Positions 69 through 36,799 of a DNA stretch of 36,958 nt are shown here, piece by piece (within the stretch, counting starts at the first letter, position 1; every line of letters begins with the position of its first letter). The translations under genes and the position numbers were made by a program. The stretch comes from a virus. The stretch lies in IMG/VR virus record IMGVR_UViG_3300009103_001101, positions 1-36,958 of that record; one strand, 5' to 3'. The notes under the pieces are model-generated. The model ran no database searches and was not told the origin of the DNA. It saw nothing but the letters and a program-made list of their open reading frames with translations.

Positions 69-407
69 ATTAAAGAATTTGACTTAAAAAAAAGTAGTGT
101 GCATGGAAAAGGGATATTTTCTAATATAGATATAAAAAAAGGACAAAATCTATTTGTCACACATCATGCTTCGTCGTCTTTTGATGTTGAAAAAACGACA
201 ATGTGGACAAATTTATCTCCAAATTTTTTATACAATCATTCCTATGACCCAAACTGTGCGTCTATAACGAAAGGTAAAATAAAATATTTGGTAACTTTAC
301 GGGATATCGCTTCCGGTGAAGAGTTGCTTGTAGATTATACACAAGATCTTGACTTGGAACAGCCCCAGTCCGACTGGGTTGGTAGAAATAGAAAGGTAAA
401 TACATAA
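69..407 (+). CDS. Single-domain SET protein, putative lysine methyltransferase
   Basis: This is a small SET-domain protein of about 112 residues from ATT at 69, or 102 from GTG at 99. Visible motifs run in the usual SET order: KSSVHGKGIFS at the N-terminus, the NHS-Y-DPNC segment (family form NHSCxPN), RDI, and GEELLVDY with the conserved catalytic tyrosine. SET enzymes transfer methyl groups from S-adenosylmethionine to lysine side chains. The K-S-S-V residues before HGKG belong to the normal SET fold and are lost if the GTG is used, which supports the ATT start. It lacks pre-SET and post-SET domains and so resembles the minimal viral vSET type in size. The target is unknown: a host DNA-binding protein or a phage protein are both possible. 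Its stop overlaps the next ATG (TAATG). Confidence 0.75.
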   Translation: MKEFDLKKSSVHGKGIFSNIDIKKGQNLFVTHHASSSFDVEKTTMWTNLSPNFLYNHSYDPNCASITKGKIKYLVTLRDIASGEELLVDYTQDLDLEQPQSDWVGRNRKVNT

Positions 408-725: not shown

Positions 726-875
726 ATGAAGATATATCAAAAATTTACAGAAGTAATATCAGACATTATTTTGATGTTTCTTATATTGGCTCCACTGTTA
801 TCAGTGTCCGCTATAGGAGCTTTATGGATGTACTATTTAGGCTATAAAATATTTAGCTTGGAACTTTGGAAATAA
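726..875 (+). CDS. Small membrane protein
   Basis: A 49-residue protein starting at ATG 726, five bases after the preceding stop. Residues 9-43 are almost continuously hydrophobic (DIILMFLILAPLLS, then AIGALWMYYLGY), enough for one long or two short membrane spans. Function is unknown. A longer reading back to 597 would overlap most of the previous gene and is not credible. It lies between a secreted protein and a glycosyltransferase, in a stretch where many products look membrane-associated. Confidence 0.55.
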   Translation: MKIYQKFTEVISDIILMFLILAPLLSVSAIGALWMYYLGYKIFSLELWK

Positions 876-879
876 ATAC

Positions 880-883
880 GAGG
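880..883 (+). promoter_or_regulatory. Shine-Dalgarno GAGG that decides a TTG start
   Basis: GAGG is six bases before TTG at 890-892. This places the glycosyltransferase start after the preceding stop (875), rather than at the TTG at 866, which has no such site and would overlap the previous gene. Confidence 0.6.
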
Positions 884-889
884 ACTAAA

Positions 890-1936
890 TTGTTAAACTT
901 AACTGCGCCCATTAATAGTTTGGGATATGGGGTGGCTGGATATAATATTTATAAAGAGTTATATAAACTTCATCCGTCCGTCGCCCTTTATCCTATTCAT
1001 AAGCCAGAATTTATAGACGAGTATATTGTTGCTGGCCTTAAAAATAGGGGATCTCTTAAAGATGCCCCATCTGTAAAACTGTGGCACCAGAACGATCTTC
1101 ATTTTCATGTTGGTAAAAATCTACATATTGGATTTCCCGTCTTTGAGCTTACGGAGTTTAACGAAGAAGAGATCAGAAGCCTCCACCACTGCGACAAGAT
1201 ATTTGTATGCTCTAGATGGGCTAAAAATGTAGTGGTAGATCAAACTAAATTTACTCCCGAAGATGTGCATGTCGTACCCCTTGGCGTGGATGTGGATATT
1301 TTTCAGCCCGGTCTATCTAAAAGACCAGTTACCATATTCTTTAATTGTGGTAAGTGGGAAAAGAGAAAGGGTCACGATGTTCTTTTAAAGTGTTTTAATG
1401 ACGCTTTTACCCAATCTGATGATGTTGAGCTTTGGATGATGTGCGATAATCCATTCATAGGCGAACAGAACAACGACTGGCAGCAGCTATACAAAAACAG
1501 CCCTCTTGGAGATAAAATAAGGATCATTCCCAGACAGTCCACACATAGAGATGTGTATAGCATTATGTTGCAATCTGATTGTGGGGTTTTTCCAGCCAGA
1601 GCAGAAGGTTGGAATTTAGAGCTTCTCGAAATGATGGCGTGTGGAAAGCAGGTAATAACAACTAACTATTCTGCCCATACTGAATTCTGCAATACAGATA
1701 ATTCTCATTTGATAGATATAGAAAACCTAGAAACAGCTTATGATGGAGTATTTTTTTCTGGATCGCATGGAAAGTGGGCACAACTTTCTGCAAACCAAGA
1801 AGAACAGCTTGTATCACACCTCCGAGCCATTCACGCAAACAAGCAAAGCGGACTCCAATTAAACAGCGCAGGCGTAAAAACCGCAAATCATTTTTCATGG
1901 CACAATTCAGCCCAAGAGGTTATCAATGGACTTTAG
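890..1936 (+). CDS. GT-B glycosyltransferase (GT4-like)
   Basis: Read from TTG 890 (Shine-Dalgarno at 880-883), this 348-residue protein starts MLNLTAPINSLGYGVAGYN, a typical acceptor-domain opening for GT4-like enzymes with a Gly-rich first loop. The middle linker VVPLGVDVDIF and the following FFNCGKWEKRKGHDVLL strand mark entry into the nucleotide-sugar-binding half. The EGWNLELLEMMACGKQVI segment is the E-x7-E donor-binding motif. Such enzymes move a sugar from an activated donor to a glycan, protein or DNA; the substrate is not readable. It is separated by more than 14 kb from the next sugar-related gene, so it may act on its own target. Its 3' end overlaps the peptidase gene by 11 bases. 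Confidence 0.85.
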   Translation: MLNLTAPINSLGYGVAGYNIYKELYKLHPSVALYPIHKPEFIDEYIVAGLKNRGSLKDAPSVKLWHQNDLHFHVGKNLHIGFPVFELTEFNEEEIRSLHHCDKIFVCSRWAKNVVVDQTKFTPEDVHVVPLGVDVDIFQPGLSKRPVTIFFNCGKWEKRKGHDVLLKCFNDAFTQSDDVELWMMCDNPFIGEQNNDWQQLYKNSPLGDKIRIIPRQSTHRDVYSIMLQSDCGVFPARAEGWNLELLEMMACGKQVITTNYSAHTEFCNTDNSHLIDIENLETAYDGVFFSGSHGKWAQLSANQEEQLVSHLRAIHANKQSGLQLNSAGVKTANHFSWHNSAQEVINGL

Positions 1937-2846
1937 TACACCACGCAAAATATTAAACCTATACAGAGACGGATTTGTTGGTAGTATTTGTGATCCTGAA
2001 GACACTGCGACACTTATGGGTGAGCTTCCCATGCCTATATTTGGTGCTGCTGCTTACGATCTTTATGGTGATGGCGAGGGTAAAGTATCTCTCCCTTTTA
2101 AGTCTTTGTTAAAATTTGATCCGGGGTTTGGTCCGCTAGAGAAACAAACAACTGGTGATTGTGTGTCTCACTCGACAAGAAATGCTGTAGATATCACAAG
2201 GGCTGTTGAAATAGATATCAAGGGTGATAGTGAAGAATTTGTAGCGAGGGGCGCAACAGAGGCAATATACCAATCAAGAGGCCATGGTGGTCAAGGCATG
2301 ACATGTACCACTGCGGCCAGATATGTAAATCAAAAGGGCGGTATATTACTGAGAAAAGATTATGGGTCTGTAGATCTATCAAAATATAATTCCAGTCTGG
2401 GTGCTAGGTCTAGAATTCCAAATAGTGTATACATAACAGAAGCAAAAAAACATCAAGTAAAAACAATATCTAATATTAGAACCATAGAAGAGGCTAGGGA
2501 CGCTCTAGCTAATGGTTATGCGTTGTCTGTTTGTTCTGGATATGGGTTTTCCAGTGTAAGAGATAAAAATGGCATAGCCAAAAGATCTGGTGGCTGGAGC
2601 CATGCTATGGCTTGGGTGGCCTGTGATGACAGTCGAGAGATATACAATGAAACATTATTTTTAATAGCTAATAGTTGGGGCAAGTGGAATTCTGGACCCA
2701 AAAGATTAGGGCAACCCGAAGGAAGCTTCTGGATTAGAGAAAAAGATGCCCGTGGGATGCTTTCTTCTGGTACTGCGTGGGTCTTTAGCGATGTAGACGG
2801 TTTTCCCTCTAGAGAAATAGATTGGACAATAGATGAGGTTTTCTAA
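1926..2846 (+). CDS. Papain-like (C1-type) cysteine peptidase
   Basis: The 306-residue protein carries the papain-fold catalytic pattern in order: Gln74 and Cys79 in KQTTGDCVSH, His226 in GGWSHAMAWV, and Asn249 in LIANSWGKW, followed by GSFWI as in papain-family C-termini. The Gln-Cys distance is one residue shorter than in papain. No signal peptide or propeptide is obvious; residues 1-70 may be a short pro- or docking region. A peptidase in a phage may mature virion proteins, degrade host factors or take part in entry or lysis, and nothing here decides among these. GAGG at 1916-1919, six bases before ATG, supports the start inside the end of the glycosyltransferase. Four small membrane-anchored proteins follow. 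Confidence 0.75.
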   Translation: MDFSTPRKILNLYRDGFVGSICDPEDTATLMGELPMPIFGAAAYDLYGDGEGKVSLPFKSLLKFDPGFGPLEKQTTGDCVSHSTRNAVDITRAVEIDIKGDSEEFVARGATEAIYQSRGHGGQGMTCTTAARYVNQKGGILLRKDYGSVDLSKYNSSLGARSRIPNSVYITEAKKHQVKTISNIRTIEEARDALANGYALSVCSGYGFSSVRDKNGIAKRSGGWSHAMAWVACDDSREIYNETLFLIANSWGKWNSGPKRLGQPEGSFWIREKDARGMLSSGTAWVFSDVDGFPSREIDWTIDEVF

Positions 2847-23670: not shown

Positions 23671-24563
23671 TAGACCTAAATCAAGAATTCCATCTTGGTA
23701 ATCGTTTTACACTAGAAACCGCAGAGCATCTGGCGGCAATACTAGATGAGCGATACAGGGTGGTGGTTAAATATGATTCACCCAGTTCACTTCCCTATTA
23801 TAAAGATAACAAACTAAACATTGTATTTGCAACCTCCAAAGAAACGCACGCCATACCAAACGAATTTTATAGAAAAGACGTGTTTGCTATATTTCAACAT
23901 TATTTTATGCTTGACAAATGGGGATATCCAATATTTAATCCACTAGTATATCCTCTACCCCTTGGTACTTTTAGAGATGTCAAAGTTGAAAATATTAAAC
24001 CGTTACCCGAAAGAAAATACGACTTTTGTTTTGTTGGCCAAATACCTCACACGGGAACTAGGGATTATTTTAAAAGAAACCTAGATGATTTAATGGAGAA
24101 AACAGGTGATAAGTTTAAATATTATGTTAAATTTACTGATGGCTTTTCTAGAGGTTTAGATCCAGAGGAGTATATAACAATTCTAGGTGACTCCAAATTG
24201 TCCCTGTGTCCACAGGGCGCAAATAGTCTTGAAACCTTTAGATTTTTTGAATCTATCATGATGGGAGCAATACCAGTCGTAGAAAGGCTTCCAAGGTTGT
24301 GGTATTATGAAACGGCTCCGAATTTTAATGTTAAATGGAGAGATATTGACTCTAACTTATCAAAAATTTTAAATTTTATACAAACGCCACACGTTCGCAA
24401 CGTTCTATATAAAATTGGCTACTATTGCAACGAGATAATGAACCCAATAAAACTAGCCGAACACCTCAAAGAAAAAATTGAAATTAGACTAAACAACATG
24501 CACCTACACCAAAGCGACATTGAAAAATTAAGGAAAGAGCTTAATGACTTGGATACCATTTAA
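23655..24563 (+). CDS. Exostosin-like glycosyltransferase
   Basis: The 302-residue protein has the same donor-site block as the gene at 16570: LSLCPQGANSLETFRFFESI followed by MMGAIPVVERLP. The central YDFCFVGQIPHTGTRDYF strand also fits exostosin-type GT-B enzymes. A C-terminal charged helix (EKIEIRLNNMHL, DIEKLRKELNDL) is added. It lies between a nuclease (16-base overlap) and the polymerase gene (20-base overlap), again inside the replication cluster. The acceptor is unknown: virion, cell-surface glycan and DNA are all possible. Confidence 0.68.
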   Translation: MPAELIDLNQEFHLGNRFTLETAEHLAAILDERYRVVVKYDSPSSLPYYKDNKLNIVFATSKETHAIPNEFYRKDVFAIFQHYFMLDKWGYPIFNPLVYPLPLGTFRDVKVENIKPLPERKYDFCFVGQIPHTGTRDYFKRNLDDLMEKTGDKFKYYVKFTDGFSRGLDPEEYITILGDSKLSLCPQGANSLETFRFFESIMMGAIPVVERLPRLWYYETAPNFNVKWRDIDSNLSKILNFIQTPHVRNVLYKIGYYCNEIMNPIKLAEHLKEKIEIRLNNMHLHQSDIEKLRKELNDLDTI

Positions 24564-26145
24564 TTGTAAAACACATTTTAGCTTGCTTAAGGCTTTCTCA
24601 AAAAGCGATAAACTAGCGCAAAAATGCAAAGAGTATGGTTACTCTTCTTGTGTTATTACGGATATTGAAACTGTTTCTGGCGCTATTAATTTCCACCAAG
24701 CCTGTCGAAAAAATGGTGTTAAGCCAATAATTGGATGCGATTTTGGCTCATACCTGATAATAGCAAAAAACAAAGAAGGCTGGCTTGATTTAATTAAAAC
24801 CGTATCTCATAGCGGGGTAGCAATATTTAAGGATCTGGCACAGAAAGGAAATCTTATATGCATAACAACAGAACCCCAAAAAGGATACAAAAAGATTTTT
24901 GGTAAAAATTATTTTTGTTATAACTATAAAAAACACAGTGTTTTCTACGTAACCCAAGACGAAGCAGAACCCCATAGGGTATTATTGTGTTCGGGCATGA
25001 AAACGACATTACCAAAAATTAGGTCTATGCTTAACAGGGGCGAACCCATAGATAATCAAGAATTTTTTGAATCAGACAATTTCTATTTGCCAAAACCAGA
25101 AGAAATTAAAGATTCTGAAGATGACATAAGGATGCTCAATAAAATCTCTGACATGTGTGAGGATTATGAGGTAACATCTAAACCTATGCTGCCAGAATTT
25201 AAGTGCCCGGAAGGTTTTGATGAGGATGAATATCTAACACAGCTTTGTCGAGATGGTTGGCGAAGTAGGTTGATGTCCTGTGATAAAATTAAAGATGAAA
25301 ACAAGAAAGACGAATATTTGCAAAGAATCAAAAAAGAGCTTGATGTTATTTTCAAAGCAGAGCTTTCTGGGTATTTTTTAATTGTGCAGGATATTGTTAA
25401 CCATGTTAAAAAGCGGGGATGGATTGCTGGGCCGGGGCGCGGTTCAGCCGCTGGATGTTTAGTTTCTTATCTGGTTGGCATAACTGAAGTGGACCCAATT
25501 CAATATGATCTGCTTTTTGAAAGATTTTACAATGAGGGGCGAAACACTGACGATCATGTTTCCCTGCCAGATATTGATGTCGATGTTCCAGCGGAATACC
25601 GAGACGAAGTAATAGACTACATTAAACAAAAATACAACTCAGAAAATGTTGCACAGATGGTCACATTTGGTAGGCTACAGGGTAGAGCAGCCCTAAAAGA
25701 AGTCCTCAGAATTAACGATGCTGTGTCATTTGCAGAAATGAATGAGATAACAAAGAGTATACCAAATGAAGCGGACATATCTGACCAGCTAGAACTTATG
25801 GATCATAGATCTATAATCAAGTGGTCACTGATAAACGACGCGAACTCTCTAAAGGAGTGGTGTACTATGGATAAAAACGATAATTTAGATGGGCCGCTAT
25901 CTTTGTTATTTGATCAGGCAATAAAAATAGAAGGCACAAATAAATCACAAGGCAAACACGCTGCTGGTGTTATTATTGCCAAAGAACCCCTAAAAAACAT
26001 ATGTCCCATGGCACTAGATAAAAATGGACAAACCATAGCGGCTTTTGAAATGAACGATCTAGAAAGTCAGGGTCACGTCAAATTTGACATACTTGGAATT
26101 GATTTACTTAGTAAGATAATGGATATTACAAATGAAGAAACATAA
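24544..26145 (+). CDS. DNA polymerase III alpha, N-terminal half (PHP and palm)
   Basis: The 533-residue protein holds the PHP domain (about residues 4-220), thumb/palm with GPGRGSAAGCLVSYLVG (297-312), catalytic LPDIDVDVP (Asp345, Asp347) and VKFDILGIDLL (Asp515). All three palm metal-binding aspartates are therefore present. The frame ends 18 residues after Asp515 at a point that is an ordinary inter-domain linker in E. coli DnaE, while the fingers and OB parts are encoded at 27417-28964. The PHP motifs are degenerate: where active PHP domains have His-x-His there is FNCKTHFSLL, and ITDIE replaces ITDH. It needs the C-terminal partner to polymerise DNA. Confidence 0.93.
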   Translation: MTWIPFNCKTHFSLLKAFSKSDKLAQKCKEYGYSSCVITDIETVSGAINFHQACRKNGVKPIIGCDFGSYLIIAKNKEGWLDLIKTVSHSGVAIFKDLAQKGNLICITTEPQKGYKKIFGKNYFCYNYKKHSVFYVTQDEAEPHRVLLCSGMKTTLPKIRSMLNRGEPIDNQEFFESDNFYLPKPEEIKDSEDDIRMLNKISDMCEDYEVTSKPMLPEFKCPEGFDEDEYLTQLCRDGWRSRLMSCDKIKDENKKDEYLQRIKKELDVIFKAELSGYFLIVQDIVNHVKKRGWIAGPGRGSAAGCLVSYLVGITEVDPIQYDLLFERFYNEGRNTDDHVSLPDIDVDVPAEYRDEVIDYIKQKYNSENVAQMVTFGRLQGRAALKEVLRINDAVSFAEMNEITKSIPNEADISDQLELMDHRSIIKWSLINDANSLKEWCTMDKNDNLDGPLSLLFDQAIKIEGTNKSQGKHAAGVIIAKEPLKNICPMALDKNGQTIAAFEMNDLESQGHVKFDILGIDLLSKIMDITNEET

Positions 26146-26371
26146 CACAACCACTTCTAAAGAAGACTATAAATCTGTTATATTTGCTGGATGCGCTATT
26201 GAGTCTAATGGTGTTTCTATTTGCAATTTAAATGATTTCAGTAAAGGACTAACCAGATATTCATCCAGATATCAGGTATGGTCAGACAAACACAGATGCT
26301 ATAAAATATATTATAATATAGATGAGGCTGTTAATAAATTTATTGAACTAAAAAATAGAGGCAAAATATGA
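26132..26371 (+). CDS. Small unknown protein between the polymerase halves
   Basis: A 79-residue product with SVIFAGCAIESNGVSICNLN, TRYSSRYQVWSDKHRCYKIY and EAVNKFIELKNRGKI. The last part reads as two or three beta strands followed by a helix. No family is recognised; it might be a DNA-binding fold or a replisome accessory. It overlaps the N-terminal polymerase half by 14 bases and the exonuclease by 4 (ATGA), so it is integrated in the operon rather than left over from an insertion. Confidence 0.5.
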   Translation: MKKHNTTTSKEDYKSVIFAGCAIESNGVSICNLNDFSKGLTRYSSRYQVWSDKHRCYKIYYNIDEAVNKFIELKNRGKI

Positions 26372-27060
26372 ATTATAGAGATATTATAGTATTCGACTTT
26401 GAAACGGGTGGCGCTAATCCGCATACGTGCCAACCAACCCAAATTGCCGCTGTGGCAATTCACGCAAGAAAACTGGAGATTCAACCCGGAGGTACATTTG
26501 ATAGCGAAATTAGACCAATTATAAACGATGATAAGGCCATAGAGGCTGGCGTTGCTCCGCTTGAGGATAAGGCTTTAGAAATCACCAGAAAGAACAGAAA
26601 GGATCTAGCCAAAGCACCACTACCAAAAACAGTATGGAAGAAATTTGCTAAGTTTTGTGACAAGTACAACTGGAAGGGCACAACATTTACAGCGCCTATT
26701 GCTGCTGGGTACAACATCAACGGATACGATATGCCAATTGTCGAGCGCATGTGTCAGCAATACGGACCAGTAGACGAGAAAAAGGGTTGTCAGAAGATAT
26801 TCAATCCCATTTTTACAATTGATATTATGCAACATATTTATTGTTGGTTTGAAAACAATCAGGATGTTAAGGGCTACAGCATGGATTACATGCGAGACTA
26901 TTTTGGAATGGGCCAAGACAGCAAGGATAATGCTCACGACGCACTGCAAGACGTTAAGGATACCGCGAATTTGATGATTAAGTTTATGAAGCTACAAAGA
27001 AGCTTATTGAAAAAAGTAAAATTTGAAAAGGCATTTGCAAATGGCGAATTGTACGTATAA
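26368..27060 (+). CDS. DnaQ-type DEDDh 3'-5' exonuclease
   Basis: The 230-residue exonuclease shows the three Exo motifs: IIVFDFETGG (Asp10, Glu12), AAGYNINGYDMPIV (Asp121) and AHDALQDVKD (His190, Asp195). These five residues are complete, so it should be active, giving a DEDDh proofreading enzyme like the epsilon subunit. It is encoded between the two halves of polymerase III alpha, whose PHP domain looks inactive. It lacks a recognisable beta-clamp peptide. It overlaps the HNH gene by 20 bases. Confidence 0.9.
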   Translation: MNYRDIIVFDFETGGANPHTCQPTQIAAVAIHARKLEIQPGGTFDSEIRPIINDDKAIEAGVAPLEDKALEITRKNRKDLAKAPLPKTVWKKFAKFCDKYNWKGTTFTAPIAAGYNINGYDMPIVERMCQQYGPVDEKKGCQKIFNPIFTIDIMQHIYCWFENNQDVKGYSMDYMRDYFGMGQDSKDNAHDALQDVKDTANLMIKFMKLQRSLLKKVKFEKAFANGELYV

Positions 27061-27424
27061 AACTTGTAGTAAATGCAAAAAAGAACTGCCTACAACATGC
27101 TTTAGTAAAAGGGGCGGGGAAAATTATTTGAGGACGGAATGTAAAGATTGCAATAAGTATTTAAGTAAAAAAAGAAAAGAGCTTCGGACCAAATATGGGC
27201 AACCGCCGGAAGATTACGAGTGTCCAATTTGTAAAAGAACAGCACCGGAAGTCTCTGGCGAGGGCAGCAAAAGAGCAGCACCCTTTGTCGTTGACCATTG
27301 CCACGTAACAGATGTTTTTAGAGGGTGGCTATGTCACAGGTGCAATAGAGGAATTGGGGCATTTGGTGACAGCGTTGAAGGTTTACAAAAAGCTATAAAC
27401 TATTTGAGTAAAAATAATGTTTGA
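27041..27424 (+). CDS. HNH endonuclease VII-family protein
   Basis: ATG 27041 is used; the frame can extend to a TTG at 27023, but that has no better ribosome site. The 127-residue protein has an N-terminal zinc-knuckle (CSKCKKEL ... CKDCNKY), then CPICKRT (Cys61, Cys64), the catalytic DHCH (85-88), GWLCHRCN (Cys98, Cys101, Asn102) and IGAFGDS. This is the T4 endonuclease VII-type HNH fold, which includes Holliday-junction resolvases and free-standing homing endonucleases. It is the last gene before the C-terminal polymerase half, overlapping it by 8 bases. It is a candidate agent of the split, or a junction resolvase. Confidence 0.85.
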   Translation: MANCTYKTCSKCKKELPTTCFSKRGGENYLRTECKDCNKYLSKKRKELRTKYGQPPEDYECPICKRTAPEVSGEGSKRAAPFVVDHCHVTDVFRGWLCHRCNRGIGAFGDSVEGLQKAINYLSKNNV

Positions 27425-28964
27425 TATTAATAATTTTGAAGATGAAGCGGTTTGGGATTTGATTTGTGAGGGGCGCACTAAGGGTGTTTTTCAGCTTGAA
27501 TCCCAACTTGGTAGATCTTGGGCCAAAAAAGTCAAGCCTAGAAATATTAATGATCTCGCCGCGCTTATTTCTTTGATCAGACCGGGGTGCTTGAAGGCTG
27601 TCACAGATGGTAAGTCTATGACGCAACACTATTGCGATAGAAAATCAAACAAAGATCCTGTAACATATCCCGATGAATCTCTTGAAGATATCTTATCTGA
27701 AACATATGGTGTTCTTGTGTACCAAGAACAGTCTATGAAAATAGTCCAGAAATTAGCAGATTTTGATTTGAAGGATGCCGATGCTTTGCGCAAGGCTATT
27801 GGTAAAAAGAAAGCTGGGCTAATGGAGGAAGTCAAAACCGCCTTCTTGTCTGGAACCAAAAAGAAGAATCTTATCACAGTAGAAGTTGCGGAAGAAATTT
27901 TCTCATGGATTGAAAAATCTAATCGGTACGCATTTAATAAATCACACGCCGTGTCTTATGCCATAAACGCATACTGGAGCGCTTATTGTAAATACCACAA
28001 GATGGTTCCTTTCTATGTGTCTTACTTAAATCATTCCGACCGGAAACCAGATTCCCAAAAAGAAATGAAAGAGCTAATTATTGATGCCAAGTTTTCAGAT
28101 ATTGAAGTATATCCTCCGCGATTAAAGAATATATATACAAACTTTACCCACAAGGGTGATAAGATTTATTTTGGAATCAATTATATCAAAAATGTTGGTC
28201 GCAAAGAATGTGAGAAAATAGAAGAAATTTCCTCTCAGGCTGACATTTCTACTTATAATTGGATGGATGTATTAACAAAAATTATCTATAAGGGTAGACT
28301 CAATAAGCGTGCGGTTATAGCTCTTATATCTGTTGGTGCTTTTAACGGGGAAAACAACACAAGAGATAGGGAGGAAATGCTATACGAGTTCGATAGCTGG
28401 AAAGACCTAACGGCTAGAGAGCAGGAGCACATCGCAAACATGGATAACTACGACAAAGATACGACACTCTCCGACTGTATAGAGGAAATGATAAATAATA
28501 TGAAAATTAACAGCCGTAGGCTTACAACTGTGGTTGATATTAAGCAAATACTAGATAATCCACCCCACGAACTAAAAGATAATATACCACTCATAGCCCA
28601 AAACGAAGAGAAATATATGAGCTGTGCGTTAACATGCAACAAAACTGATGGTTTTGATATGAATTTTTCTAGTTCTTTGTGCAAAGACATAGCAAAAGGC
28701 TCTATAACAGGGAAGGTAAGATTAGCGGCGCAAATTAACACTATTAGGTTATATAAAACAAAAAGAGGTAAAAATCCGGGTCAGCTAATGGCCTTTTTGT
28801 CTATCGAAGACAGTAGTGGTTCGTTAGACTCTATAACGATTTTTCCAGATTGCTATGACAAACATAAAGAATTACTTGTTGAAGATAACACCGTTTTATT
28901 GGTTGGCGAAGTTTCTAAAAAAGAAAACACTTCGATAATTGTGAACAAGGTTTCACAAATTTGA
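27417..28964 (+). CDS. DNA polymerase III alpha, C-terminal half (fingers, HhH, OB)
   Basis: The 515-residue protein starts where E. coli DnaE continues after the palm: FDINNFEDEAVWDLI, then GVFQLESQ (23-30), LISLIRPGCLKA, YGVLVYQEQSMKIVQKLADF, ADALRKAIGKKK, and RYAFNKSHAVSYAI (170-183). It goes on to a helix-hairpin-helix-like region (IKNVGRKECEKIEEI) and a C-terminal OB fold (about residues 425-512, GKVRLAAQINTIRLYKTKRG). No catalytic aspartate is needed in this half. It should bind the incoming nucleotide and DNA and assemble with the product of 24544-26145. SSB follows 10 bases later. Confidence 0.93.
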   Translation: MFDINNFEDEAVWDLICEGRTKGVFQLESQLGRSWAKKVKPRNINDLAALISLIRPGCLKAVTDGKSMTQHYCDRKSNKDPVTYPDESLEDILSETYGVLVYQEQSMKIVQKLADFDLKDADALRKAIGKKKAGLMEEVKTAFLSGTKKKNLITVEVAEEIFSWIEKSNRYAFNKSHAVSYAINAYWSAYCKYHKMVPFYVSYLNHSDRKPDSQKEMKELIIDAKFSDIEVYPPRLKNIYTNFTHKGDKIYFGINYIKNVGRKECEKIEEISSQADISTYNWMDVLTKIIYKGRLNKRAVIALISVGAFNGENNTRDREEMLYEFDSWKDLTAREQEHIANMDNYDKDTTLSDCIEEMINNMKINSRRLTTVVDIKQILDNPPHELKDNIPLIAQNEEKYMSCALTCNKTDGFDMNFSSSLCKDIAKGSITGKVRLAAQINTIRLYKTKRGKNPGQLMAFLSIEDSSGSLDSITIFPDCYDKHKELLVEDNTVLLVGEVSKKENTSIIVNKVSQI

Positions 28965-28974
28965 AAGGACTTAA

Positions 28975-29292
28975 ATGAATAGATGCCATTTCTTAGGAAA
29001 GCTGGTAACTGACCCAAATTTGACCACACCCTACTCCACCGATCTTGTAAATTTCACACTAGAGGTTGAAGAATACAGACGAGATAAAGATGGTGTTAAA
29101 AAACGTAGAACAGATCTACTAAATTTTGAAGCTTGGGACAGCGCGGCAACGACCATTCACAAATACGCCTCTAGGAATGATTTTCTGATTGTAGAAGCAA
29201 TAGCTAGAAATCCCCCTAGTAAAAAATGTGGAGAAGTGGTTTTTAGGGTTACTAATTTTAAAATTTTTCCACAAGAGTATAAAAGGTCTTAG
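28975..29292 (+). CDS. ssb: Single-stranded DNA-binding protein
   Basis: The 105-residue protein has the SSB OB-fold order: MNRCHFLGKLVTDPNL, VNFTLEVEEYRRDKDG, RTDLLNFEAWDSAATTIHKY, and VVFRVTNFKIF. Bacterial SSB usually has a disordered tail ending in DDDIPF, which recruits partner enzymes. Here the protein ends right after the OB fold with QEYKRS, so that interaction tail is absent. It lies just behind the polymerase, with AAAGGA upstream of its ATG. It would coat ssDNA at the fork and in recombination. Confidence 0.85.
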   Translation: MNRCHFLGKLVTDPNLTTPYSTDLVNFTLEVEEYRRDKDGVKKRRTDLLNFEAWDSAATTIHKYASRNDFLIVEAIARNPPSKKCGEVVFRVTNFKIFPQEYKRS

Positions 29293-29299
29293 TAGTAGT

Positions 29300-30949
29300 A
29301 TGACAAGAAATAAAAAAGTTCTTTTTTGCTCTGAAGCCTCTTGGTTGAGTACTGGTTATTCTGTATATACTAAAGAAGTATTAAACAGGTTAAATCAGGT
29401 TAACGGCCTAGAGATTGCTGAACTAGCGTGTTATGTCGATAAGAATAATCCACAGATTGCATCTACGCCTTGGAAAGTTTATCCAAATAAACCACTCCCC
29501 GGAGACGCCACACTAAACTCGTATAACGCGAGCCCCAGCGCTCAGTTTGGTGAACAAGCATTTAATCACGTTCTATTGGATTTTCAGCCGGATATTGTGA
29601 TAGACATACGTGATTGGTGGATGATAGAATTTGAACAACGATCTCCTTTTCGTGATTTTTTTCATTGGGCAATTATGCCAACCGTAGATGCGGAGCCCCA
29701 AGACCTTCAATGGATAAACACATATGCTTCCGCAGACGCCGTATTTGCGTATTCAGAATTTGGCAGAGACACATTGCTAAAACAGTGCGATGATATAAAT
29801 TTTGTTAATATCGCCTCTCCTGCTGCCAGCGAAGCCTTTCTGCCCATACCAGATAAAAATCAGCATAAAAACAACATGGGCATCTCTGATGACTCTATGA
29901 TTATTGGCACCGTCATGCGCAACCAGAAGAGAAAACTATATCCCGATCTTTTTAAATCATTTGCAAAATTTTTAAAACAAATCAACAGCAATAATGTTTA
30001 CTTGTATTGCCATACTTATTATCCCGATGTTGGCTGGGATATACCAAGACTTTTAGACGAACACGGGCTTGCAAGTCGTGTGTTATTTACATATAAATGC
30101 AAAAATTGTGGCAAAATTTCTTGTGATTTCTTTCGAGATTCCATAAATGGTTGTTTTGGGTGCGGCGCTCTAACTAATCAGCTTGCTGGAATAAGCAATA
30201 GCGTAAACACAGAAGAGCTATCATCAATATATAATATCTTTGATGTATATGTTCAATATGCTAATAGTGAGGGCTTTGGGATGCCGCAGCTAGAGGCCGC
30301 ATATTGTGGTTTGCCAGTCATATCTACATATTACTCAGCTATGCAGTCCGTGGTCGATAATATAGGAGCGATAGGAATCAAACCGATATCATATTATTTA
30401 GAGTGTGAAACCGGGTGTAACAGAGCTGTTCCAGATAATGAAAAATTTATTAAGGAACTTATAAGATTATACAATAAGAAATCAGAGATAAGATCTATGG
30501 GCATGGAGATTTGTAAAAGGGCAAGAAGTCGTTATACTTGGGACAAGGCCGCCAATGTTTGGCTTTCACACATAAAAAACGTGCCGATACGAGACCATTC
30601 GGAAACTTGGCTATCGCCTCCTAAAATTTTTGAGCCAGCTACCAGCGTCCCATCCCATATAGTATCTATTGTCGATAAAATTAATTTTATATTTACAGAC
30701 ATACTACACAAACCAGAATGGATTGGCAAGTATATATGGAGAAAAGTTTTGAAAGATTGTACTTTTGGATACAGATGTGAAAATATAAATAAAGATTTTT
30801 ACTTTAACGAATCCCACAAGCAATCCTTTACTTCAAATGTTCCATTTTCATTTGAAGATGCGTGCAACGAAATGGCTAATTTTAGAAGACAGCTTAATCA
30901 ATGGGAGCAAGCGAGATCTAACATGGCTCAACAAAGGATATCCAAATGA
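29300..30949 (+). CDS. GT-B glycosyltransferase with inserted zinc ribbon
   Basis: ATG 29300 is chosen because it follows the ssb stop; an upstream reading from 29228 would overlap ssb. The 549-residue protein has KVLFCSEASWLSTGYSVYTK at its start, a donor domain with IIGTVMRNQKRKLYPDLFKS, and the E-x7-E motif in SEGFGMPQLEAAYCGLPVIS (Glu324, Glu332). Between these, residues 265-290 carry KCKNCGK (Cys267, Cys270) and CFGCG (Cys285, Cys288), a likely zinc ribbon. A C-terminal extension of about 130 residues has no recognised fold. It is the first gene of the distal glycan cluster. Confidence 0.82.
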   Translation: MTRNKKVLFCSEASWLSTGYSVYTKEVLNRLNQVNGLEIAELACYVDKNNPQIASTPWKVYPNKPLPGDATLNSYNASPSAQFGEQAFNHVLLDFQPDIVIDIRDWWMIEFEQRSPFRDFFHWAIMPTVDAEPQDLQWINTYASADAVFAYSEFGRDTLLKQCDDINFVNIASPAASEAFLPIPDKNQHKNNMGISDDSMIIGTVMRNQKRKLYPDLFKSFAKFLKQINSNNVYLYCHTYYPDVGWDIPRLLDEHGLASRVLFTYKCKNCGKISCDFFRDSINGCFGCGALTNQLAGISNSVNTEELSSIYNIFDVYVQYANSEGFGMPQLEAAYCGLPVISTYYSAMQSVVDNIGAIGIKPISYYLECETGCNRAVPDNEKFIKELIRLYNKKSEIRSMGMEICKRARSRYTWDKAANVWLSHIKNVPIRDHSETWLSPPKIFEPATSVPSHIVSIVDKINFIFTDILHKPEWIGKYIWRKVLKDCTFGYRCENINKDFYFNESHKQSFTSNVPFSFEDACNEMANFRRQLNQWEQARSNMAQQRISK

Positions 30950-32037
30950 ATAAAGTGCTTTATGTAGGAAATTATAGGGACGGTACAGGATGGGCAAACG
31001 CCTGTATCAACAACATATTGGCATTAGATGCCGCTGGCGTAGACATTGTTCCAAGACCAATAACATTTGAACAACAACAACAAAACTACCCAGAAAGAAT
31101 AAAAGAATTAGAATCAAAACCCACGGACGGTTGTGATATATGTATTCAACACACTTTGCCCCATCTATACTCATACAATGGTAAATACAAGAAAAACATA
31201 GGATATTTAGCGGTCGAAAGTAGTAATTTTAAACAAACAGGATGGCAAAACTTTATAAACCTAATGGATGAAATATGGGTTCCAAGCTTGGCCGCCAAAA
31301 AATCATGTGAAAACAGCGGAGTAAAAAAACCAATTAAAGTAGCACCACACTCCTTAGATATGTCTGCTTACGATCCCAGTAAAGAATCTATACAGATACC
31401 AGAGATAGATTCAACTTTTAACTTTATTTTTGTTGGGGAATTTATAGAAAGAAAAAATATAGAAGCCTTAATCAAGGCTTTCCACATGGAATTTGATTTT
31501 TATGAGCCAGTAAATCTTGTAATAAAAACATCAAAAGTAGATATGGACGCCGCACACCAATATTTACAAGACATTAAAACAAAACTAAAAATAAAAAAGA
31601 CATACAAAAATGAAATTTTTATGATTGGAATGATGGACAAAGATCAATATATATCACTTTTAAATAAGTGCAATTGTTTTGTTATGCCAAGCAGGGGAGA
31701 AGCCTTTTGTATTCCAGCGCTAGAAGCTATGGTATTAGGTCTGCCAGTGATACATACCAAACATACGGGGATGGATGATTTTTGTGTGGGTGAATCTGTA
31801 GACTCTTTGTCTGTTCCATGTTTTGGCGCCATGTCTACAATTTTTAATCTTGACACAGCACAAAGCGACTGGCAAGAAATAGATTTAAAAAAATTATGCT
31901 CGGCTATGAGAGAAGTTTATTTAAAGTGGAACTCTAATGAAGCTATATCGATGTCCTCCGCAGCCAAAAACAATGCGAAAAAATATGACCACAAACCAAT
32001 GGGACAACACCTAAAAGGATTGTTAAATGACGACTAA
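30946..32037 (+). CDS. GT-B glycosyltransferase (GT4-like)
   Basis: The 363-residue protein has a GT-B layout: MNKVLYVGNYRDGTGWANAC, a linker with KVAPHSLDMSAYDP, the donor-domain strand FNFIFVGEFIERKNIEALIK and the E-x7-E block in SRGEAFCIPALEAMVLGLPV followed by HTKHTGMDDF. The start overlaps the previous stop by ATGA. It likely adds one sugar in the same glycan pathway as its neighbours; the donor is unknown. Confidence 0.85.
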   Translation: MNKVLYVGNYRDGTGWANACINNILALDAAGVDIVPRPITFEQQQQNYPERIKELESKPTDGCDICIQHTLPHLYSYNGKYKKNIGYLAVESSNFKQTGWQNFINLMDEIWVPSLAAKKSCENSGVKKPIKVAPHSLDMSAYDPSKESIQIPEIDSTFNFIFVGEFIERKNIEALIKAFHMEFDFYEPVNLVIKTSKVDMDAAHQYLQDIKTKLKIKKTYKNEIFMIGMMDKDQYISLLNKCNCFVMPSRGEAFCIPALEAMVLGLPVIHTKHTGMDDFCVGESVDSLSVPCFGAMSTIFNLDTAQSDWQEIDLKKLCSAMREVYLKWNSNEAISMSSAAKNNAKKYDHKPMGQHLKGLLNDD

Positions 32038-33058
32038 AGCAACACCAGAAGCCATAAGGTCTATAATACGTAGACAAGATATGGATAAGCTAGAAAGGCT
32101 TAATATTCTAACATTTTGCACCCACGAAAGATATGAGCAACAATTATGTAAAACTGGGCACAATTTTTATTCAATCAAACATGGTAAAACTTGGGATACT
32201 GATTATGGTAATGTTCCAAATAATTATCATATTGTAGATAACACACCCCCCTCACATATTGATGTGGATCTGGTGTTATGTCACACCGTATGTGAAAGGA
32301 TAAATATTGCAAAAAGAATTAAAGACGATTTGAATATACCAATCATATTATTGACACATGTGCTCCCCGATATTAGAATGAATGTGCCATTACAAGTGGA
32401 ACAATTTAAACAAATATCTAATAATATTGATCAAAAAGTTTTTATCTCTGATTTTAATAGAAGCGCATGGGGCCACAGTGAATCAAACGCCAAGTATATT
32501 GAACACGGGATAGACTGTGGGTTTTGGATGGAGCCACAAGGCGGCACCAGAAATAATTTGTGCTTATCCGTCGTGAACGATTGGCCGAACAGAGATTGGT
32601 GCTGTGGATGGGAACTATGGAAAGAAACAATTGGACTTGGAGCGCCAAATCAATTACCTGTGAATGTGGTCGGCAAAAGCCCCGGATTATCAGAACCAGC
32701 AAAGTCGATTGAGCATCTGAGAGAAACATACCACAGCTCTAGAATATTCTATAACACATCTATTCATTCTCCAGTTCCTACTGTGTTGATGGAAGCTATG
32801 GCGTGTGGGTGCGCAGTGGTATCTACCGCAACTTGTATGATTCCAGAAATTATTGAACATGGCGTAAATGGTATGATATCAAACGATCCAAAAGAATTAA
32901 GATCTTTTTTAGAACAACTACTATCCGATGAAGACATGGCGAAAGAGATGGGTGAAAACGCACAAAGAACTATATATGAAAGATTTAATTTAAATTCTTT
33001 TGCGGAAAAATGGAACGACATCTTTTATGCCACCATAAAAAACTACAAGGAATACTAA
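32027..33058 (+). CDS. GT-B glycosyltransferase (GT4-like)
   Basis: The 343-residue protein has an N-terminal acceptor domain (LNILTFCTHERYEQQLCKTG), a hinge with KYIEHGIDCGFWME, and a C-terminal donor motif (SIHSPVPTVLMEAMACGCAV, with STATCMIPEIIEHGVNGM). The usual first Glu of E-x7-E is replaced by Ser-Pro-Val, but the second Glu in MEAMACG is kept. The pattern PTVLMEAMACGCAVVST is typical of GT4 enzymes. It overlaps the previous gene by 11 bases and the next by TAATG. Confidence 0.82.
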   Translation: MTTKATPEAIRSIIRRQDMDKLERLNILTFCTHERYEQQLCKTGHNFYSIKHGKTWDTDYGNVPNNYHIVDNTPPSHIDVDLVLCHTVCERINIAKRIKDDLNIPIILLTHVLPDIRMNVPLQVEQFKQISNNIDQKVFISDFNRSAWGHSESNAKYIEHGIDCGFWMEPQGGTRNNLCLSVVNDWPNRDWCCGWELWKETIGLGAPNQLPVNVVGKSPGLSEPAKSIEHLRETYHSSRIFYNTSIHSPVPTVLMEAMACGCAVVSTATCMIPEIIEHGVNGMISNDPKELRSFLEQLLSDEDMAKEMGENAQRTIYERFNLNSFAEKWNDIFYATIKNYKEY

Positions 33059-33486: not shown

Positions 33487-34277
33487 TTCCGCATAGTAAC
33501 TGTAAGGGTTGTGTGTTTGCAGACATGGGGGAGTTTGCACAAAAGTCTTGTAGGCTAGGTAGGGACTCAAAACTAGGCATACAGGACACGGACGATGATG
33601 GTTTTTTTGTTTTGTCTAGATTTTGTAATACCTATAGACCAAAGGAGTGGCTGAAAGAACTTTCTATAATTGAATCTGAAGACACAAAGACCACCGTTAT
33701 GGGGGAAATTTATCCAAGATTGGGTTTCTTTGTTTTGTTACAAACAAATACAGCAGACGAAATAGAAGGTTTCAAAAAAACATTAGAAGATATCAAAAAC
33801 CAAAAAGCCATCAAACCAAGATATATTGTTGTTATTAACGACAAAGTAGAATACAACGAAGAGGTTTTTAAGCTTTTAGAAGATTCATTTGATTTTTCAG
33901 AAACAGAATATCATATAGTTCAGTTGCGACAAATTCCAAAAAATAGAGCCGCCAGAATAGATCAAGCTTTTTCACACGCAAAAAACGGCTGGATTTACGT
34001 AACCTCATCTGGAGAAAAAATCCCCAGAGACCTCATATATAAAATTCACCAAAGAATAAATATAGATATGAAAAAGTTGGTGGTTGTAAAACCATATGAC
34101 GACATAAATGGTCTACTGTTTCAAACTTCTTTGTTTAAATTTGTAAATGGAAACAAAACAAAATTATATCAAGACGAAATAATTGATAGTAGATCTTTTA
34201 TGGAAAAGGTAGAATCCGCCGCGCAAAATAGCGACAGCGAAACTTTTATTACGTGGAGTGAATTTAATGAATCCTAA
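33483..34277 (+). CDS. Degenerate GT-A protein with N-terminal Cys cluster
   Basis: The 264-residue protein begins with a cysteine cluster (CKGCVFADM with Cys7 and Cys10, then Cys23 and Cys48), probably a metal site. Residues 80-240 follow the GT2/GT-A plan: FFVLLQTNTADEIEGFKKTL, KPRYIVVINDKVEYNEEVF, KNRAARIDQAFSHAKNGWIY. Where an active GT2 has a DxD motif, this protein has VTSSGEKIPRDL, so the metal/donor site is missing. It may be a pseudo-glycosyltransferase that binds a sugar donor or another subunit. AGGAGG lies just upstream of ATG 33483, and ATGA overlap couples it to the previous gene. Confidence 0.5.
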   Translation: MIPHSNCKGCVFADMGEFAQKSCRLGRDSKLGIQDTDDDGFFVLSRFCNTYRPKEWLKELSIIESEDTKTTVMGEIYPRLGFFVLLQTNTADEIEGFKKTLEDIKNQKAIKPRYIVVINDKVEYNEEVFKLLEDSFDFSETEYHIVQLRQIPKNRAARIDQAFSHAKNGWIYVTSSGEKIPRDLIYKIHQRINIDMKKLVVVKPYDDINGLLFQTSLFKFVNGNKTKLYQDEIIDSRSFMEKVESAAQNSDSETFITWSEFNES

Positions 34278-35043
34278 AGTCGCCATAATCATAGCCAATT
34301 ATAACTATGAGAATTATGTTATCAAAGCTATTAATAGCGCATTAAATCAAACTTATAAGGGTGAGATCAGGATCTATATTGTAGACGATGGCTCCAATGA
34401 TAGCTCGTGGGAAAAAATATCAGAAGTCACAAAGCCCGTTACGTCCATAGAAATGCTAGATTTATATTATGAAGGTGATATAGAGTTTAGACAGTCGGGT
34501 AATATCTTTGCTTATCGTATAAAGAATTCAGGCGCAAGTGTTGCTAGAAATGTTGCTATGTGGCAAGCAATGGAGTGGGCAGATGTGTTTGGAATATTAG
34601 ATTCTGACGACGAATATTACCCAGAAAAAGTTGAAAAACTTGTTGAAAAGTTGGTCGAATATCCAGAAATTGGTGTTGCGTATGCAGACTATAAAATAAT
34701 TACACCAAATTATTGCAAATTAGAACTAAAAGAATCTTATAGCGCAAATGTTCTTTTTCAGAGGTGTATGGTTCATAGTAATTCGTTGATCAAAAAACAA
34801 TATATAGAACAGGTAATATTACCCAATAGAGAAATATTTGACAGTAGGCTTCATGGTCCAGCAAGCAAGGGTTTTATTGGATGCACAGAAGACTATGATT
34901 TGTGGATAAGACTATCTAAGGTATGTATAATGACACATGTGCCGGAATGCTTAGCCGTGGCAAACGAGCATGGAAATAATCAATCACTAAAAATGACAAA
35001 TGAAATCTTTAATCAACATGCGCAAATTTTGGGGAGTAGGTAA
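34267..35043 (+). CDS. GT2-family glycosyltransferase (GT-A)
   Basis: ATG 34267 is preferred over GTG 34258 because GGAG at 34255-34258 is correctly spaced for it. The 258-residue protein shows the GT2 order: AIIIANYNYENYVIKAINSA, IYIVDDGSNDSSW, NSGASVARNVAMWQAMEWAD and FGILDSDDEYYPEK, whose Asp-Ser-Asp-Asp binds the metal and nucleotide sugar. A later EDYDLWIRL is the catalytic-base region of GT2 enzymes. Unlike the preceding protein, its active site looks complete. It overlaps the next gene by one base. Confidence 0.9.
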   Translation: MNPKVAIIIANYNYENYVIKAINSALNQTYKGEIRIYIVDDGSNDSSWEKISEVTKPVTSIEMLDLYYEGDIEFRQSGNIFAYRIKNSGASVARNVAMWQAMEWADVFGILDSDDEYYPEKVEKLVEKLVEYPEIGVAYADYKIITPNYCKLELKESYSANVLFQRCMVHSNSLIKKQYIEQVILPNREIFDSRLHGPASKGFIGCTEDYDLWIRLSKVCIMTHVPECLAVANEHGNNQSLKMTNEIFNQHAQILGSR

Positions 35044-35756
35044 TGGGTAGGTTTACCACCAATATTACATCCCAAGAAAAAAAATCTCATAACAACATAG
35101 CAGATACCACTGTCGCCATACTATCGGCTGGAACTGGCCCAAGAATAAAATCATATGAGCCTAGAAGCTTAATAAAAATAGGAAATAAAACATTATTAGA
35201 ACATCAGATATCAGCAATATCAGAGTGTTTTGAATCCCCCGAAATTATTACAGTTGTTGGATGTAGGGCGGATAGAATAATAAAAAAGATGAGGGGAAAT
35301 GTTAGAATAGTAGAAAACCAAATACACGAACAAACCAACACGTCTGAAAGTATGAGGCTAGCTTTTAACAATAGTATGAAAAATAATTTTCTGTTTATGC
35401 ATGGTGATTTATATTTTAATGCGTCAACTTTAAAAAACATTAATTATGATAAATCATTTGTCATAATAGACAATAAAAAAATGATTACTGAAAAAGAGGT
35501 GGGGGTAACTATTTTTAATGATAAGGCAACAATATTCTCTTATGGTCTTCCCACAAAATGGTGTCAAATAGCATATATAACAGGTAGGGAACTAAAGATG
35601 CTGAGAAACATATTTAATAAATTTGACACAACACAGAAAAAAATGCTATCGTTTGAAATATTAAATAAAATGATATCAATGGGTGCCATATTCAGATGTT
35701 ATGAGCCATCCAACATGTCTATATTGGAAATTGACCGCATAAAGGATTTAAGCTAA
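35043..35756 (+). CDS. Sugar-phosphate nucleotidyltransferase-like protein
   Basis: The 237-residue protein has the nucleotidyltransferase signature TVAILSAGTGPRIKSYEPRS, then LIKIGNKTLLEHQI (usual form GxGxR ... PK-x-L). FLFMHGDLYF supplies the metal-binding aspartate. Lys is replaced by Arg in EPRSL, where PK is usual. It would make an NDP-sugar or CDP-alcohol from NTP and a phosphorylated substrate, feeding the neighbouring glycosyltransferases. The N-terminal 20 residues are a polar extension. Overlaps the flanking genes by one base each. Confidence 0.75.
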   Translation: MGRFTTNITSQEKKSHNNIADTTVAILSAGTGPRIKSYEPRSLIKIGNKTLLEHQISAISECFESPEIITVVGCRADRIIKKMRGNVRIVENQIHEQTNTSESMRLAFNNSMKNNFLFMHGDLYFNASTLKNINYDKSFVIIDNKKMITEKEVGVTIFNDKATIFSYGLPTKWCQIAYITGRELKMLRNIFNKFDTTQKKMLSFEILNKMISMGAIFRCYEPSNMSILEIDRIKDLS

Positions 35757-36799
35757 TGAAGGTAATGATATCTAGCGACGGTGGACACGCCCATCTTTTT
35801 CAAAGAAAGGCTTGGGCTAATGCTTTTAGTGTGTTTGGAATTGATGTTGCGCTCTGGGATTGTAAAAATACCCCAGCGTTTGACGCCTTTGACAGTTTTG
35901 AACCCGATATTTTTCTGGGTCAATCGTATAATTTGGACGAGCCCACAATAAAATGTATTTACGAAAGACCCCATTTAAGAATAGGTCTTAGGGCTGGAGA
36001 TTGGGGGGTTCATGAAAATATTGTTGATAAAAATAAATTCAATATACTTTATTGTTCAGCCAAAGAGAAAGAAATTCTAAAAAAACTCAAAGAAGAAACT
36101 GGAAAACCAGATTTTGTTCATATACATTATGATGAATCAGCGGTAAATGTTACACATAATCATTTTGAGTCAATAGGAATCAAACCAGTATCACTTATGA
36201 TGTGTGCTGACACGCTTGTGTATTCGGGTGCTAAATTCGATTCAAAGCTCGCATGTGATATTGGGTTTGTGGGTGGATATTGGCCATACAAGGGGCTGGT
36301 TATAGATCGATACCTTTTTCCAATGCTTGATCCGGTTGGTCAGTATAATGTTAAAATATTTGGAAACCAACCATGGTGGAAGGCTAATCAATATTGCGGA
36401 CTAATAGGCGACGAAGAAGTCAAAAATCTTTTTGTATCTGCTAAAATTTGTCCCAACTTGAGTGAGCCACACGCCCAAGAATTTGGAATAGATATTAATG
36501 AAAGAATTTTTAAGATTCTTTATTCTGGTGGCTTTTGCGTCTCAGACAGTGTGTCTTCGTACAAAATGTTTGGGGATGGGCTAGTGATTGCAAAATCTCC
36601 AGAAGATTTTAGAGACAAGATTAATTATTACCTAGAAAACGAAGAAGAAAGAAAATCTATATCCAAAATCGGTCATAATTATGTTAAGAAAAATCATACC
36701 GGATTTCATAGAATTGCAACGATAATGCAAGAATTGGGCTACAGTGATTTGTCTAAAAACATAATCAATCAATATGAGGCATCGATAAATGAGAACTAA
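35756..36799 (+). CDS. CgeB-like glycosyltransferase
   Basis: The 347-residue protein resembles CgeB/spore-maturation-type GT-B proteins: MKVMISSDGGHAHLFQRKAW, IGFVGGYWPYKGLVIDRYLF, VKIFGNQPWW, then LSEPHAQEFGIDINERIFKI followed by LYSGGFCVSD with the donor-binding E-R-x-F-E-like block. The C-terminal SPEDFRDKINYYLENEEERK and HNYVKKNHT are also family-typical. It would transfer a sugar in the same glycan pathway. It overlaps the following gene by 11 bases. Confidence 0.8.
   Translation: MKVMISSDGGHAHLFQRKAWANAFSVFGIDVALWDCKNTPAFDAFDSFEPDIFLGQSYNLDEPTIKCIYERPHLRIGLRAGDWGVHENIVDKNKFNILYCSAKEKEILKKLKEETGKPDFVHIHYDESAVNVTHNHFESIGIKPVSLMMCADTLVYSGAKFDSKLACDIGFVGGYWPYKGLVIDRYLFPMLDPVGQYNVKIFGNQPWWKANQYCGLIGDEEVKNLFVSAKICPNLSEPHAQEFGIDINERIFKILYSGGFCVSDSVSSYKMFGDGLVIAKSPEDFRDKINYYLENEEERKSISKIGHNYVKKNHTGFHRIATIMQELGYSDLSKNIINQYEASINEN

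Follow-up and report, generated by a model that had tools for sequence, protein, structure and literature searches.

At this viral locus the alpha subunit of DNA polymerase III is encoded by two genes with three others lying between them, which raises the question of whether the two halves still constitute a working replicase and of what separated them. The window, meaning the whole stretch of DNA that was analysed, is the 36,958-base virus record IMGVR_UViG_3300009103_001101, positions 1 to 36,958. Five consecutive and overlapping forward genes encode, in order, the N half of alpha (alpha-N), a protein of 79 residues, a DEDDh exonuclease, an endonuclease VII/HNH-type protein and the C half of alpha (alpha-C), after which an SSB-like gene follows (Table 1). 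The overlaps from alpha-N to alpha-C are 14, 4, 38 and 8 nt, the third being 20 nt if the HNH gene starts at the ATG at 27041, which is likelier than the TTG at 27023. Genes for a DnaB-type helicase and a primase are also encoded in the window.

Table 1. Genes of the split polymerase locus, in window coordinates.
Feature	Position	Strand	Matches and length
N half of Pol III alpha (alpha-N)	24544..26145	+	PF02811, PF07733; 533 aa
79-aa gene, no family	26132..26371	+	no Pfam/PHROG match
DEDDh 3'-5' exonuclease (epsilon/DnaQ-like)	26368..27060	+	PF00929 1.3e-13; phrog_192 'DNA polymerase exonuclease subunit'
Endonuclease VII/HNH-type gene	27041..27424 (open from TTG 27023)	+	PF02945, phrog_2633
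C half of Pol III alpha (alpha-C)	27417..28964	+	PF17657, PF14579, PF01336; 515 aa
SSB-like gene, directly 3' of alpha-C	28975..29292	+	PF00436 6e-9

Pfam analysis of alpha-N identified PHP (PF02811, 1.5e-15) and DNA_pol3_alpha (PF07733, 2.1e-75) domains, and this half consists of PHP and the whole palm with all three catalytic aspartates present, the last of which (in VKFDILG) is residue 515 and is followed by 18 residues. alpha-C begins a few residues ahead of the fingers (PF17657, 8e-46) and continues into HhH (HHH_6, PF14579, 4e-10) and OB (PF01336, 8e-6) domains; the family C features of a three-aspartate palm, fingers, HhH and OB were all found across the two genes, the OB match lying just below the cut-off. 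The first-pass annotation had described a 533-residue frame stopping 18 residues past Asp515, a 515-residue frame resuming the polymerase, and a small gene, a DEDDh exonuclease and an HNH gene overlapping between them. The ORF coordinates and the PF07733 match agree with the first of these descriptions, the finger domain match (PF17657, 27417-28964) with the second, and the ORFs and their coordinates with the third. On solved DnaE structures the halves are complementary, as the N-half profile ends at residue 626 of Taq DnaE and the C-half profile starts at 642 (584 on E. coli DnaE), and since only the linker is missing between the profiles the cut falls at the palm/fingers domain boundary. Modelled alone, alpha-C reached an AlphaFold pLDDT of 90 and matched DnaE structures over its full length, with M. 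tuberculosis DnaE1 (7pu7, E 9e-24) as the best PDB match. The window and 58 relatives have lost both metal motifs of PHP, HxH and TDH; 61 others retain both.

Relatives were collected from three IMG/VR scans and one scan of bacterial and archaeal genomes. The first set contained 113 loci with both halves, including some overlaps and duplicates; there was no fused gene among them, and all 113 had the exonuclease gene between alpha-N and alpha-C. Overall, 146 distinct split loci remained once near-copies were removed, again in each case with the exonuclease in the intervening position (146/146), with an SSB gene directly 3' of the C half in 115, and with a gap between the halves of 802 to 3602 bases (median 862). 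The break occurred at the identical palm/fingers linker in all loci that were lined up, including the most distant (L124). A break that recurs at one position in 146 distinct loci is neither chance nor read error and rules out an assembly error; a search of phage genomes for the same split point and a possible read-level error had both been raised in the first-pass annotation, and the shared cut supplies the former and excludes the latter. DnaE was fused in 81 surveyed loci from cells and from phages outside the clade; most of the phage DnaEs checked beyond the clade were unsplit. In 1,259 of 1,315 matching phage-collection records at least 80% of the junction-spanning query matched in one place, a count that directly adjacent splits of the P1201 kind escape and that carries no claim that cultured phages are all unsplit.

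In a tree of both halves all split viral sequences formed one clade (SH-aLRT 100), and in a more careful tree that included Bacillus phage G and Corynebacterium phage P1201 this clade received 100/100 support and appeared in 100% of 200 bootstrap trees. The split is a single event that predates the clade's common ancestor; it is old and fixed across the whole group, within which the halves are down to about 29-36% identical. None of 50,697 phage records searched was closer than about 31%, and no cultured member of the clade was found there; the literature searched contained no description of it, the 2011 viral-replicase survey (PMC3201878) standing outside the scope of that search. The lineage of the window (59 of 133 sequences) is without the PHP metal motifs, has lost about 100 alpha-N residues and carries the 79-aa gene. 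A second lineage mostly keeps the PHP motifs and has another small gene, of about 60 aa, in the corresponding position, and a few loci (L071-L080 and L062) combine intact PHP motifs with a gene of the 79-aa type.

We interpret the locus, with a probability of roughly 0.88, as the replicase operon of a large uncultured phage lineage that makes its family C polymerase as two proteins. One gene provides PHP and palm and the second fingers, HhH and OB, with the cut in the linker after the last palm aspartate; translation would be coupled across the gene overlaps, and the two proteins would join non-covalently through the palm-fingers interface to give one active polymerase. Such binding of the halves to each other is what we infer from the domain and conservation evidence together with precedents. 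Epsilon proofreads for alpha, and the exonuclease of the operon would likewise proofread for the split alpha, while the small protein may aid assembly. In this reading a single split preceded the ancestor of the clade, and the HNH gene was inserted much later, at the junction of the exonuclease and C-half genes.

The catalytic aspartates (PDIDxD, KFD) were invariant in 133/133 sequences, and the GPGRGS loop and KH motif were kept in essentially all 133. Unsaturated close pairs (L002/L004 and L029/L033) gave dN/dS values of about 0.03-0.06 for both halves, and the identity matrices of the N and C halves correlated with r = 0.95; dN/dS and catalytic conservation together rule out a decaying pseudogene. 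In each of 20 long records (80-244 kb) the palm and finger domains were found once only, and neither a family A (PolA) nor a family B polymerase (PolB, PF00136) was detected; the records are linear and possibly fragments, so that this absence is not final. As the split polymerase occurs once in these records and neither PolA nor PolB was found beside it, it is very probably, judged from sequence, the working replicase. The clamp (PF02767) was not found in the 20 records either, which leaves the holoenzyme incomplete on paper.

Alternatively, the halves may form no replicase, one or both having been repurposed while host Pol III copies the phage. This alternative gains some plausibility from other jumbo phages, whose minimal split Pol III occurs alongside a PolB and is possibly auxiliary (PMC7824862). 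We nevertheless consider it improbable, as catalytic and DNA-contact motifs are all kept in both halves under equally strong purifying selection, the long records hold no other polymerase, and the genes stand in an operon with an exonuclease and SSB in a window that also encodes helicase and primase. The proposal in the first-pass annotation that the halves assemble into one working replicase has good indirect support from catalytic conservation, purifying selection, the sole polymerase of the long records and the complementary domains, whereas its connection to splitting by a free-standing endonuclease is not supported for this gene, as discussed below.

The DEDDh catalytic residues of the exonuclease were kept in 132-133 of 133 relatives, and in 19 of the 20 long records the PF00929-detectable DEDD exonuclease was the operon's own. 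Relatives of the 79-aa gene were found at the same position in 67 cases, the gene being kept in about half of the clade, and its dN lies well below dS, indicating selection on the small gene. The protein matched no Pfam or PHROG family and is predicted to be alpha-beta4-alpha (model pLDDT 79), with no significant structural match or known fold in a comparison to PDB. A theta (HolE)-like helical bundle was considered and rejected, given the predicted mixed alpha/beta structure and the lack of a significant structural match. The gene that replaces the 79-aa gene in the second lineage (about 60 aa; L113 8863-9039) has a conserved SCC motif, is found at this position in about 70 loci and seems unrelated to it by sequence. 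A more far-reaching interpretation, which we offer tentatively, is that the family C replicase of a major uncultured phage lineage is obligatorily composed of several proteins, made in the order alpha-N, small protein, epsilon-like exonuclease and alpha-C, with exonuclease and small protein as assembly partners; the gene order would then never have been lost because these two bridge or seat the alpha subunits. Bacteroides phages DAC16 and relatives were rejected as kin, as their exonuclease is similar (25%) but the neighbouring genes tested in DAC16 are not DnaE.

The first-pass annotation had linked the divided polymerase to gene splitting by free-standing endonucleases, of the kind in which nrdA of phage Aeh1 was reportedly split by insertion of mobE. 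An endonuclease gene does lie between the halves in the window, and elsewhere DnaE is cut by HNH-type or homing endonuclease genes (L211; Bacillus phage G gp330). However, HNH relatives were present in only 12 of the 113 loci of the first set, and the relatives lacking them were all equally split. In loci without the HNH gene the exonuclease stop overlaps the alpha-C start, for example TATGTTTGATATT in L014, and the window HNH gene sits exactly at this overlap rather than being the only gene that separates two polymerase parts. The exonuclease of the window retains its own stop, and the HNH stop replaces it in the overlap with the alpha-C ATG. The window HNH shares 87% identity with its counterpart in L217, whereas alpha-N and alpha-C of the same two loci are only 53% and 43% identical, indicating that the HNH gene moves independently and came after the split. 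The combination known from Aeh1, an endonuclease at the break and unsplit related phages, was thus not found in this clade, and it is highly unlikely that insertion of the HNH gene divided the polymerase. From these sequence relationships, the HNH gene is a late mobile passenger at the exonuclease/C-half junction that breaks neither gene. Other loci carried sugar enzymes, a glycosyltransferase, a methyltransferase and other endonucleases in both gaps (functions by eye from sequence), and these gaps are normal operon junctions at which genes can be inserted.

It is plausible that the polymerase gene was first divided by an ancient mobile element that inserted near the conserved KFDxLG codons and has left no trace. 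Mobile elements do hit this family, as an HNH gene in L211 and inteins in L124 illustrate. In L211 (1861-4932; Alphaproteobacteria MAG contig, Lake Lanier) a second cut in alpha-N, made by an HNH gene directly ahead of PDIDID, leaves DnaE in three pieces, and the last N piece has an extension of about 100 aa. In L124 (5174-9439 and 13053-15836; a 138 kb viral contig) two inteins were found in alpha-N and one in alpha-C, and three further genes lie on each side of the exonuclease.

It is scarcely credible that the halves end up in a single polypeptide through a self-splicing intron or a split intein: both elements are known in family C genes (the inteins in both halves of L124; a group II intron near the same site in L258), but Rfam detected no group I or group II intron in the window or in seven relatives while the same search recovered the intron of L258 (5.5e-10), the region between the halves consists of overlapping genes under selection and varies in length and content, and neither half contains a Hint/intein domain (Pfam), the 18 residues after the aspartate and the few before the fingers leaving no room for one. 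The spliced intron that the first-pass annotation had weighed against its own reading was accordingly not found in the window or seven relatives. The intron that served as positive control interrupts the KMD|FLG codons of dnaE in L258 (5095-7919; Clostridiales MAG), nearly at the split point of the clade, and this apparently split dnaE falls outside the split clade in the tree. Bacillus phage Jayan (L126 6120-6460) has a DnaE annotated as two genes and broken just before the DID motif (QMDIDTD), with a gap of about 270 nt that resembles an unannotated group I intron by eye and has no Rfam match.

Split replicases have hitherto been viewed as scattered accidents of mobile elements. The fixation of this break across a deep clade suggests that a family C polymerase can function long term as two chains. 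Split phage replicases as such are already known from gene 43 of T4-like phages, the minimal Pol III of jumbo phages and Bacillus phage G. In Aeromonas phages 25 and 44RR the replicase is likewise made from two adjacent genes, and in phage 25 the two parts of the gene 43 polymerase purify together and show activity (PMC2988022), but this is a family B polymerase in few phages, with a seg endonuclease or untranslated sequence in the gap and no proofreading gene between the parts. Group 2.2 jumbo phages have a minimal split Pol III alpha coexisting with PolB (Iyer et al. 2021, PMC7824862), in which the family C catalytic module is also present as two standalone proteins. Those proteins comprise only the NTP-binding and Mg/template-binding subdomains and are encoded by distant genes, whereas the present system has the complete set of PHP, palm, fingers, HhH and OB in neighbouring genes, with no PolB (PF00136) detected in the 20 long records.

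Bacillus phage G (L301 14246-25009, NC_023719) also has DnaE in separate ORFs, namely gp329 (with an intein), gp331 and gp339, with the homing endonuclease gp330 between the first two and therefore beside one break; it differs in having three pieces, other cut points, an intein inside and its last piece 5 kb away, and it falls outside the clade. In Corynebacterium phage P1201 (gp59/gp58) DnaE is cut at almost the same palm/fingers linker, but this is a single case with unsplit near relatives, in which the ORFs overlap directly with nothing between them and which could be a frameshift or sequencing error. Cyanobacterial DnaE is also encoded by two genes, its halves being joined by a split intein (PMC3919608) of a kind not found here. 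What is new in the present clade is a full Pol III alpha domain set in neighbouring genes, always with the exonuclease between them, with no other polymerase found, and fixed over a deep uncultured group. The clade identifies the palm/fingers boundary as a natural and conserved place to cut, which is useful for the design of split or switchable Pol III, and the locus offers a clean case for studying why a proofreading gene remains locked between two alpha genes.

Outside the polymerase genes, Pfam analysis identified many glycosyltransferase and nucleotidyltransferase genes beside the replication genes (window 866-1936, 29300-33058 and 34258-36799). A short protein at window 99-404 corresponds to the C-terminal part of a SET domain (PF00856, 1.4e-10), which is unusual for a phage, and the gene at window 1926-2846 resembles a papain-like cysteine protease by eye (GDCVSHS, WSHAMAW, NSWGKWN), without a Pfam match.
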